64,000 bases of DNA, taken from NCBI GenBank assembly GCA_030729045.1, contig JANQYF010000008.1, forward strand, positions 1 to 64,000. The letters run 5' to 3'. Both the position numbers and the translations under genes were made by a program. How positions within the stretch are numbered: position 1 is the first letter of the stretch; the number at the start of each line of letters is the position of its first letter. The notes under the pieces were generated by a model. It searched no databases and was not told the origin of the DNA. It saw only the letters and a list, made by a program, of their open reading frames with translations. Below, one piece after another: positions 58,808 to 62,572 of the stretch. The stretch comes from Ilumatobacteraceae bacterium. GTDB lineage: Bacteria; Actinomycetota; Acidimicrobiia; Acidimicrobiales; Ilumatobacteraceae.

Positions 58808-59869
58808 TCAGGGGGTCAGGCGCAGACTCACTTCGTTTCCCAATAAACGGCCCTGACGTGTGAGGACAATGCGCTCTCCCACCACTTCCACCAAGCCCTC
58901 TAAGGCTTCAACATCAAGTGTTCCCAGCGGAACCCCGTCACGTGTTCGCAGTGACAATTCCAAGGCTTCTCTGGCCCGAGTTGGTGCATCCAAGACTTCG
59001 TCGGACGCTTCAACGGTTTCATTTTTAGCGACGCAATCGATGTACCTATCAGGGGTGCGAACATTCCACCAGCGCCTGCCATCTAGATGCGAATGCGCAG
59101 CACAACCAAACCCTGTGTAGTTACCTTGCGACCAGTACACCTGGTTATGACGACACTCGTGGCCCGCGAGCGCCCAATTGCTGATTTCGTAGTTCATCAG
59201 ACCTGCTGCTGAAAACAAATCATCGGCAAGAACGTATTTGTCGGCTTGATCATCGTCATCAGGATGACGACTCGGGTCTTCCGCTAACGGCGTACCGGCT
59301 TCTACAGTCAACCCGTACGCAGAAATGTGAGTTGGCTGCAATGCAATGGTTTGTTCAACTGTGGTGCGCCAGTCGTCAACAGATTCCCCGTGGACTCCGT
59401 AAATCAGATCCAAGTTGATGGATGTGATTCCACCTTCACGAGCAGCAGCGATTGCTTTGACAACATTTGCAGGGTCATGCGTGCGATTAAGTGATTGCAA
59501 AACGTGATCAACCATTGACTGCACACCCATACTGATGCGATTAACCCCAGCAGCCGCGTAAATCTTGATCATTTCAACAGTTACATCATCGGGATTACAT
59601 TCGATTGTGATCTCTGCGTTCGAGGTAACCGGAATTGCTGAAACTATCGATGCAAGAAGTTCAGGAGCAAGACGCGTGGGAGTTCCTCCGCCGAAAAATA
59701 CAGTGTCCGCAACTGGCATTCCCTTTTTTACAGTTCGTTCAATATCAGCAATGACTGCGTCAACATAGGCAACCATGAGATGGTCACGATCAGTCCATGT
59801 TGCAAATGCGCAGTAATCACAGCGGTGACGACAGAACGGGATGTGAACGTAGACCCCGAACTCAGACAT
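58808..59869 (-). CDS. hemW: HemW-type radical-SAM protein
   Basis: 353 residues. Radical-SAM cluster motif CRHRCDYCAF (CxxxCxxC), VFFGGGTPTRL, ITIECNPDD, RISMGVQSM and LDLIYGVHGES. The CxxxCxxCAF form without the extra Cys of HemN indicates HemW, a haem chaperone, rather than coproporphyrinogen dehydrogenase, although databases often label such genes hemN. It begins 9 nt after the bldD stop and is probably co-transcribed. HemW next to hrcA/dnaJ is common in bacteria. Confidence 0.94.
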   Translation of the reverse strand: MSEFGVYVHIPFCRHRCDYCAFATWTDRDHLMVAYVDAVIADIERTVKKGMPVADTVFFGGGTPTRLAPELLASIVSAIPVTSNAEITIECNPDDVTVEMIKIYAAAGVNRISMGVQSMVDHVLQSLNRTHDPANVVKAIAAAREGGITSINLDLIYGVHGESVDDWRTTVEQTIALQPTHISAYGLTVEAGTPLAEDPSRHPDDDDQADKYVLADDLFSAAGLMNYEISNWALAGHECRHNQVYWSQGNYTGFGCAAHSHLDGRRWWNVRTPDRYIDCVAKNETVEASDEVLDAPTRAREALELSLRTRDGVPLGTLDVEALEGLVEVVGERIVLTRQGRLLGNEVSLRLTP

Positions 59870-59878
59870 GATGCGTTC

Positions 59879-60403
59879 CTATGCGGCCGGTGGCACGAAC
59901 AAGAGACCAAGTTCAGAGAGCTTGTCTCCTACTTGGTCTACTGGCACATCAAGCATCACGGCGATTGCGCGGGTGTCATGGGCGCGAACGGTAATGACTT
60001 TGCCGTTGAAATCTTGGCGCTGCACTTGAATCATGCGCAGGAAGCGTTCGAGCATTTCAAACTGTGTTCCACCCATCGTTGAAAGACGGGCAACGTCGAT
60101 ACGCAATTTGCGCGGGGCACCGTCATTCGCCCCACCATCATCAATGCGTTGTGTATCGCGGGGCAATAGCTGGTCAATAGTGATGCCATAGAAGCGAGCA
60201 AGGCGCTCAAGGCGCGGAACCGAGATCGCCCGCTCTCCGCGTTCGTATGCCCCAAGCACCGAGGCCTTGAATTCGCTGTCGCTTTTGTCTTCAACATCAG
60301 ACAACGACCATTGTTTCTGTTGCCGTATACGGCGTAGACGCTCCCCGACTAGTCGGGTAAAGGGAGAATCTTCTAGGAGTTCGTCATCGGTATAAGAAGC
60401 CAT
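59879..60403 (-). CDS. bldD: BldD-like transcriptional regulator with c-di-GMP signature
   Basis: 174 residues. N-terminal Xre-type helix-turn-helix (LRRIRQQKQWSLSDVEDKS...FKASVLGAYERGERAISVPRLERLARFYGI) very close to Streptomyces BldD, including YERGERA. A linker leads to a C-terminal domain with RQD at 129-131 and RAHD at 140-143. This matches the RxD-x8-RxxD c-di-GMP-binding signature of BldD, with NGKV in between as in the Streptomyces protein. It probably represses target genes as a c-di-GMP-bridged dimer. A perfect inverted repeat lies 2 nt before its ATG. It is located between dnaJ and hemW. Confidence 0.92.
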   Translation of the reverse strand: MASYTDDELLEDSPFTRLVGERLRRIRQQKQWSLSDVEDKSDSEFKASVLGAYERGERAISVPRLERLARFYGITIDQLLPRDTQRIDDGGANDGAPRKLRIDVARLSTMGGTQFEMLERFLRMIQVQRQDFNGKVITVRAHDTRAIAVMLDVPVDQVGDKLSELGLLFVPPAA

Positions 60404-60405
60404 AT

Positions 60406-60422
60406 CACCACCCAGTGTGGTG
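60406..60422. promoter_or_regulatory. Inverted repeat at the bldD start, candidate BldD box
   Basis: CACCAC-CCAGT-GTGGTG is a perfect 6-bp inverted repeat with a 5-bp spacer. Its centre reads CCAC-N5-GTGG, matching the inner AC-N5-GT of the Streptomyces BldD box (TnAC-N5-GTnA) but not the outer T/A. Its position at the translation start would suit autorepression. It also overlaps the only ribosome-binding-like sequence. Confidence 0.48.
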
Positions 60423-60458
60423 CATACAACGCCGCAAGTGTGCGACCATCGCTACTTT

Positions 60459-61574
60459 CTAGGAAAAAGCGGATTTGATACGGGAAAAAATGCCCTTGTC
60501 GGCTGATGCCACTTCGTCGCCTGAAATCTCGGCCAGGCGCCTGTACAAGGACTCTTGTTCGTCGTTGAGTTGCGACGGAACAACAACAGAAACCCGGACG
60601 CGAAGATGACCCCGACCGCGGCCATTCAAATGAGTGACACCACGACCTTTTGCCACGAACTCATGACCATGTTGAGTACCAGCAGGGACAACAAGGTCAA
60701 GATCACCATCGAGTGCTTCCAACACTTGGTGCACTCCGAGTGCTGCTTGCGACACTGTCAACGGAAGATCACAAATCAGGTCATCATCTTCACGTGCGAA
60801 GCGAGGGTGCTGTGCAACAGCGACGTGCACATACAAATCACCATTGTCTCCACCACGAGGACCAGCAGCTCCACGACCAGTAAGGCGCATTGTTTGACCT
60901 GAATTGATTCCACCTGGAACGTCGACTGTGTATGACTCACGCGACGACGTACGGCCTTCGCCTGAACACTTTGAACACGGTGTAACTATGACTGTGCCCA
61001 TGCCTCCACAACGTCCGCAGGCGCCTGTGGTGACCATTTGACCAAGCATGCTTTGACGGACACGACGCACTTGGCCTGCTCCGCCACATTCGGTACACGT
61101 GACAGGCTGAGTGCCTGAACCGGCACCGGAACCAGAGCAATCCGTGCATGCAATTGCAGTGTTGACATCAACGGTGACTTGCGTACCGAACATGACACCC
61201 ATGAGATCTACGCGTGCAGTCACCTCGAGGTCTTGTCCACGCGGAGGTCCTGCTTGCTGACGACCGCCACCACCACCGAAGAAGGCTTCAAAGATGTCGC
61301 CAAAACCGCCGCCTCCACCGAATGGGTCTGAACCTCCACCTGATCCGGCACCAGAAATGCCTGCATCGCCGAATCGGTCGTACCGACTACGTGTTTCCGG
61401 GTCTGACAACACTTCATATGCGTGACTGACTTGTTTGAACAAGTCTTCTGCTTCAGGGTCATCTGGGTTTGCGTCTGGGTGTAGCTCACGCGCGCGCTTG
61501 CGATATGCGCGTTTGATTTCATCAGCACCTGCAGTGCGATCTACTTCTAGCAGCTGGTAAAAATCGGCGCTCAT
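60459..61574 (-). CDS. dnaJ: Chaperone DnaJ
   Basis: 371-residue type I J-protein. J-domain with HPD (ARELHPDANPDD), a Gly/Phe-rich region (about 75-105), a zinc domain with CTDCSGSGAG, CTECGGAG, CGRCGGMG and CSKCSGEG, and C-terminal substrate-binding domains. It stimulates DnaK. It corresponds to the DnaJ2-type gene downstream of hrcA in actinobacteria; the start overlaps the hrcA stop by 4 nt, so the pair is coupled. Confidence 0.97.
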   Translation of the reverse strand: MSADFYQLLEVDRTAGADEIKRAYRKRARELHPDANPDDPEAEDLFKQVSHAYEVLSDPETRSRYDRFGDAGISGAGSGGGSDPFGGGGGFGDIFEAFFGGGGGRQQAGPPRGQDLEVTARVDLMGVMFGTQVTVDVNTAIACTDCSGSGAGSGTQPVTCTECGGAGQVRRVRQSMLGQMVTTGACGRCGGMGTVIVTPCSKCSGEGRTSSRESYTVDVPGGINSGQTMRLTGRGAAGPRGGDNGDLYVHVAVAQHPRFAREDDDLICDLPLTVSQAALGVHQVLEALDGDLDLVVPAGTQHGHEFVAKGRGVTHLNGRGRGHLRVRVSVVVPSQLNDEQESLYRRLAEISGDEVASADKGIFSRIKSAFS

Positions 61575-62572
61575 AGCGTTCCTTCTGCAATATGACGGCC
61601 CAACTGGGCGCTCACTACTTCGACTGTTGTCAGTGCTTGCGGGTAATTCATGCGGGTAGGACCAAGAACTCCTACGGTACCGATGACTTCGCCGTCAGCA
61701 AACACTGGCGACACCACGACAGAACATGACACAAGTGGTTCGACACCATGCTCGGCACCAATTGCAACTGACAGTCCCCTATCAAGCATGTCTTGCAACA
61801 ACGTGACCACTACAAACTGTTGCTCAATGGTGGACAACACATCACGCACAACGTCTACCGCATCAAAAGCATTAGCCATTGATGATGCGCCACCTACAAA
61901 CACTGGCGCCTCATTACGGTGCCGTGATAGTGCGTTGATAGTGGCGAAACAAACAGCATCAACATGGGCATCGTTTGTTGATGACACCGTGGTGACGTCT
62001 CCTAGCGAATGACCAACAAGGGTTCGCGACAAATGAGATACAGCATCTGAAATCTGTTGGTCTGTGATGTCTTCTGACATTTGAATCATGTCGTTTTCCA
62101 CATTGTGATTCGACAACACCACGACCACAGTTGCGGTACGTGAAGTAACGCGACTTATATGAACTGCTCGCACAATGGTTGTATCTGCTTCGGGCCCCAC
62201 GATGACTGCTGTTTGGTGGGTGATATCTGCCAAAAGCGTGGTGGTGTGGCGCAACAAATCTTCCAGCCGACCATGCGTGGCCTTAAAGAAGTCCCCTACC
62301 TGTGTGGCATCTTCAGAAGCCAACACGCCGGCTGTTGAAATGGAGTCGACAAAATGCCTATAGCCCTTATCTGTGGGAATTCGCCCAGCAGATGTGTGCG
62401 GTTGCGCCAAGTAGCCCTCTTGTTCAAGCACAACCATTTCGTTTCGTACTGTTGCCGACGAAACCATCACAGAGGACTTCTGTGCAATATGTGTTGAGCC
62501 AACTGGCTGACCAGTTGCTACATATTCCTGGACAACGGCCCGAAGGATGGCGGTTTTGCGTTCGTCGAGCAT
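61571..62572 (-). CDS. hrcA: Heat-inducible transcription repressor HrcA
   Basis: 333 residues. N-terminal winged helix: LDERKTAILRAVVQEYVATGQPVGSTHIAQ...SSATVRNEMVVLEQEGYLAQPHTSAGRIPTDKGYRHFVD, highly typical. A GAF-like middle domain and the C-terminal GTVGVLGPTRMNYPQALTTVEVVS complete the family pattern. It normally represses groE/dnaK operons through CIRCE; I find no CIRCE element at this locus. It follows phr after 12 nt. Confidence 0.97.
   Translation of the reverse strand: MLDERKTAILRAVVQEYVATGQPVGSTHIAQKSSVMVSSATVRNEMVVLEQEGYLAQPHTSAGRIPTDKGYRHFVDSISTAGVLASEDATQVGDFFKATHGRLEDLLRHTTTLLADITHQTAVIVGPEADTTIVRAVHISRVTSRTATVVVVLSNHNVENDMIQMSEDITDQQISDAVSHLSRTLVGHSLGDVTTVSSTNDAHVDAVCFATINALSRHRNEAPVFVGGASSMANAFDAVDVVRDVLSTIEQQFVVVTLLQDMLDRGLSVAIGAEHGVEPLVSCSVVVSPVFADGEVIGTVGVLGPTRMNYPQALTTVEVVSAQLGRHIAEGTL

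Follow-up and report, generated by a model that had tools for sequence, protein, structure and literature searches.

A BldD ortholog with an intact c-di-GMP signature in apparently non-sporulating freshwater Acidimicrobiia

The window analyzed here, a stretch of 64,000 nucleotides from an uncultured freshwater actinobacterium, codes for an ortholog of BldD that we regard with good confidence as the vertically inherited version of a planktonic acidimicrobial genus, most likely working as it does in Streptomyces. There, BldD blocks sporulation while c-di-GMP is abundant. The signature for this ligand is intact in these apparently non-sporulating organisms, and two related lineages that lack it also lack the canonical c-di-GMP-making enzyme. 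The switch therefore probably predates sporulation.

Results and discussion

Identification of the BldD ortholog and its domains

The open reading frame that the preliminary description placed at 59879-60403 is real; its strand had to be corrected to minus, such that the gene, a bldD ortholog by homology searches and synteny, runs from an ATG start at 60403 to 59879 and codes for 174 residues. The N-terminal HTH DNA-binding domain (residues 13-81; 60161..60367, minus strand) is matched in phmmer searches by 2ewt, the corresponding domain of BldD (E 8e-16), and the predicted C-terminal c-di-GMP-binding domain (residues 97-174; 59882..60115, minus strand) by 4oaz, which was solved with c-di-GMP (3e-9), with further matches to 2mc4 and 5khd. 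This resemblance is far from chance. The Pfam model BldD-like_C (PF21179) exceeds its cut-off of 27 with a score of 60.2 bits, and the NCBIfam BldD equivalog NF050110 reaches 136.8 bits, under its cut-off of 250, a threshold that we judge to be a naming cut-off for close relatives rather than a defining property of BldD. The AlphaFold2 model, with a mean pLDDT of 77 and a disordered linker, was aligned by Foldseek to 2ewt and 4ob4 over the HTH with target-normalized TM-scores of 0.94-0.96, and to 5khd, 4oay and 4oaz over the C-terminal domain with target-normalized values of 0.75-0.83. The close similarity of the HTH to that of Streptomyces BldD, claimed earlier from the letters of the sequence, is thereby borne out. 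The BldD proteins of Streptomyces coelicolor and S. venezuelae (2ewt, 4ob4, 4oaz, 4oay, 5khd) have the same two-domain layout. In the modeled match, identity to the window protein is about 49% over the very similar HTH and 33-38% over the C-terminal domain.

The predicted c-di-GMP site

The signature RxD-x8-RxxD is reproduced in the window protein, as first proposed, by RQD at residues 129-131, eight residues, and RAHD at 140-143 (RQD-FNGKVITV-RAHD; 59975..60019, minus strand), whose ungapped counterpart in Streptomyces BldD is RGD-x8-RQDD, and the segment is conserved in the relatives compared. In the Streptomyces protein, guanine is read by R114, D116, R125 and D128, with further contacts from K84, I110, N118, S123 and R130 (Tschowri 2014, PMC4151990). 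The equivalents here are R129, D131, R140 and D143 for the guanine readers and K99, I125, N133, T138 and R145 for the others; hence, both the signature and the other contacts are common to the two proteins, with 8 of the 9 published contacts identical and S123 to T as the sole change. In an order-level alignment of 14 sequences, the C-terminal domain has 11 invariant residues, and 6 of them are ligand contacts (hypergeometric P = 1.3e-4). Across the genus and its nearest neighbor the C-terminal domain evolves slowly (dN 0.08-0.15, with synonymous sites near or at saturation) while the linker diverges freely. The signature is found in 80/80 BldDs of Ilumatobacteraceae relatives from a species-representative collection, and in 49 of the 50 from a sample of genus, family and order relatives. 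We consider a c-di-GMP reading of the window protein well supported, and infer binding itself from these sequence features.

Host, gene neighborhood and descent

The host is an uncultured freshwater member of the Ilumatobacteraceae (Acidimicrobiales) of the acIV type, an association of Ilumatobacter with freshwater acIV that is known from the literature (PMC5962788). The guess of a planktonic habitat in the preliminary description fits, as the host's closest relatives are MAGs of this family from lakes and reservoirs; named BldD relatives include bins from Lake Baikal and of acIV and extend to Ilumatobacter nonamiensis at 60%. The genome at hand is 1.13 Mb and 80% complete. Several Ilumatobacteraceae-like MAG contigs (L112-L191) carry record titles naming Bifidobacterium breve or Ferrithrix and are apparently mislabeled.

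All neighbors of bldD are on the minus strand: dnaJ (60459..61574) and hrcA (61571..62572) upstream, and hemW, coding for a radical SAM protein (58808..59869), downstream. The order hrcA-dnaJ-(one gene)-bldD-hemW is kept in nearly all members of the order that were checked, hemW mostly; in contrast, a Streptomyces-like locus (L239) is without these genes in the stretch fetched. The gene that parts dnaJ from bldD elsewhere in the genus has been deleted in the subclade of the window (60422-60458; L002-L008), leaving only roughly the final 25 bases of that gene and the palindrome described below. In a BldD tree, an analysis proposed at the outset, the family is monophyletic (100/89); the bootstrap is not fully settled, and the placement is broadly consistent with vertical descent. 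By gene position and tree the window gene is the true counterpart of bldD.

A candidate operator before bldD

Directly before the gene lies the palindrome ACCACACTGGGTGGT (60407..60421), which resembles the core AC-N5-GT of the BldD box and is a candidate autoregulatory operator. It keeps the AC-N5-GT spacing of the box TNAC-N5-GTNA, with C/G in place of the outer T/A. Members of the genus carry ACCACACTGKGTRGT or a close variant directly 5' of the bldD ATG, and members with only 23-43% identity at four-fold sites agree at 12-14 of the 15 positions (P 6e-4 to 6e-8). The palindrome is absent from the relatives compared outside the genus. Given that it occupies positions -18 to -4 and overlaps the ribosome-binding region, with a G-rich right half resembling a ribosome-binding site, it might instead be a translation-initiation or RNA feature, an explanation to which we assign a considerable but lesser share of the probability. 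Against it speak the left half ACCACAC, unchanged in 30 of 30 genus members, the retained box spacing, and a species (L024) with two similar copies in tandem. On balance we lean slightly toward autoregulation of bldD through this candidate site.

No target beyond the candidate bldD palindrome was found in searches of the host genome and of 13 genomes. The strict Streptomyces box is not enriched in the former, with 5 matches versus 15 for the reversed control; three of the five fall within coding sequence or at its end, and two are intergenic, one by glnK-amtB and one by an MFS gene. One strict match, TTACACAGAGTTA (L066:1501-1513; G000:C40:8406), lies about 130 bp upstream of glnK-amtB, and could instead be the site of a nitrogen regulator. 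A near-perfect palindrome, TCACGCAGCGTGA (L064:1501-1513; G000:C34:57681), precedes an MFS transporter gene by about 60 bp. Searching 13 genomes for the bldD palindrome with at most two mismatches returned further copies; those inspected are within coding sequence, such as RCC1-type repeats encoding DDTVWCWG, and were rejected as targets. Likewise rejected were a box-like site in the frame of the host's GGDEF-EAL protein, which falls in the PAS coding region, and one that precedes whiG by about 60-68 bp in four genomes; the latter is explained by coding constraint, since it lies on the codons for TTQRYT of the upstream recombinase.

c-di-GMP enzymes and the question of sporulation

As the preliminary description had suggested, we looked for GGDEF/EAL proteins and found one predicted enzyme in the host genome by its sequence motifs, a PAS-GGDEF-EAL protein whose motifs include SGDEF and an RPSD I-site and whose EAL domain is largely canonical. 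No ATG, GTG or TTG was seen near the start of the first PAS-like stretch of its frame (L108:3251-3491). Most of the 32 genus genomes have its ortholog, and most also have a second, membrane-type GGDEF-EAL protein. PilZ was not detected in any of 28 genus genomes.

A sporulation-like dormancy or morphological program, unseen in an uncultured group, would leave the role of BldD the same as in Streptomyces. In its favor, a WhiG-family sigma factor is conserved in the genus as well, and RsiG is reported in 3/4 Acidimicrobiales (PMC8325347); a scan for the RsiG motif found nothing in the stretches fetched. This possibility appears unlikely to us in light of the small genomes of the genus (about 1.1-2.5 Mb as assembled), which come from lake plankton. 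The search for the sporulation marker SsgA, which also returned zero matches, is uninformative because the controls gave none either, and thus proves little.

The WhiG-family gene lies in the order dprA-xer-whiG-M23 peptidase-tsf (G000:C8, about 92.5-93.0 kb; L330:8491-8992). Its conservation in this genus is contrary to a 2021 review, which limits the conservation of whiG to organisms making long exospore chains (PMC7985256). An apparent whiG deletion in the host genome was rejected, the gap being a run of N and not a pseudogene.

Signature and GGDEF across Actinomycetota

The relationship between BldD and c-di-GMP synthesis was surveyed in an even draw of 297 Actinomycetota genomes, at least 90% complete apart from that of the host. 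Of these, 264 have GGDEF proteins and 115 have a BldD match; sequences were read for 69 of the latter, the remaining 46 being counted by match only. A verified signature is found in 59 of the 69, and all 59 of those genomes have a GGDEF protein (naive P = 4e-4, with phylogeny ignored). An objection raised at the outset, that the genome might lack any diguanylate cyclase, fails because the host has a GGDEF-EAL protein and because no verified signature occurs without GGDEF anywhere in the phylum sample.

The sole BldD-positive genome of the 115 without GGDEF (G294; 98% complete) keeps lepA-hrcA-dnaJ-bldD, and its BldD has an intact HTH and ends at 139 residues, with the motif region missing. A similar case is G227, in which a REC-GGDDF variant is the sole GGDEF-like protein; here the order is hrcA-dnaJ-rsmE-bldD-phoH, and BldD has 133 residues and is without the motif. 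Thus, the signature is absent in two syntenic orthologs from genomes lacking canonical GGDEF. The organisms belong to different families of the same class; the two proteins join as long branches in the gene tree, which does not prove independent losses. Family f22 and the genome G160 have no BldD at all, and most of those genomes are also without GGDEF.

The coupling of signature and GGDEF is not strict, given that three dnaJ-adjacent orthologs lost motif 1 while GGDEFs remain: RIN in L060, REN in L226 and RQE in L257, the last also with altered motif spacing. The first of these (L060:2382-2912) is a syntenic ortholog from a genome with 12 GGDEFs, and its protein may have lost tetramer binding. 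The dependence is one-way and imperfect, as GGDEFs persist without BldD. These motif 1 losses and the missed NF050110 cut-off would suit a c-di-GMP-unresponsive repressor of the BldD fold, with its C-terminal domain kept for another nucleotide, constitutive dimerization or a protein partner, which we find unlikely. Against it, the four base-reading residues stay invariant across the order alignment while other parts of the domain diverge; in the phylum sample a verified signature always comes with GGDEF, and a genome lacking GGDEF has a truncated domain.

A proposed mode of action

We infer ligand binding, dimerization, repression and autoregulation from comparison with the Streptomyces protein. 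Under the favored reading, at high c-di-GMP a tetramer of the ligand, held by both signature motifs of two C-terminal domains, would pair the protomers; the paired HTH domains would then bind palindromes of the AC-N5-GT type and repress transcription, and BldD would release DNA as c-di-GMP falls. Synthesis and breakdown of the signal would fall to the two bifunctional GGDEF-EAL enzymes conserved in the genus, of which the incomplete host genome shows one. One likely target would be bldD itself, through the palindrome directly before its start codon, and the wider regulon is presumably not that of sporulation.

Conclusions

The antiquity of BldD is already published and is not new: bldD was reported in Acidimicrobium, of the same class and an ortholog of the window gene, and inferred to be present in very early actinobacteria (Chandra & Chater 2013, PMC4255298). 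That paper predates the discovery of c-di-GMP as the ligand of BldD, and it offers no analysis of the protein's ligand site or of GGDEFs. Actinomycetes that sporulate and carry BldD were stated to have GGDEFs as well, with all contacts conserved (Tschowri 2014, PMC4151990), and the literature consulted describes the switch as a control of sporulation throughout these organisms. Literature on BldD and Acidimicrobi*, to the extent that it was accessible in text, yielded no treatment of the ligand site in Acidimicrobiia. Within the same bounds, three points appear to be new: that freshwater Acidimicrobiia without apparent sporulation conserve this site, that BldD is truncated in G294 and G227, and that a palindrome specific to the genus precedes bldD. 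For another Streptomyces developmental c-di-GMP switch, which belongs to a protein family different from BldD, a different output, type IV pili, has been proposed in unicellular actinobacteria.

An older role of the BldD/c-di-GMP switch outside sporulation is plausible from these comparisons. More tentatively, and at somewhat below an even chance, we propose that the switch is the main recognizable c-di-GMP output of this apparently non-sporulating plankton, autoregulated and with an ancestral role unrelated to sporulation, and that where c-di-GMP synthesis is lost the ligand domain would be shed as the HTH protein persists. The intact, conserved signature throughout apparently non-sporulating Acidimicrobiia, together with its absence in the two orthologs from genomes lacking canonical GGDEF, suggests that ligand sensing predates sporulation, and the original role of BldD becomes directly testable in small genomes with only two GGDEF-EAL enzymes.
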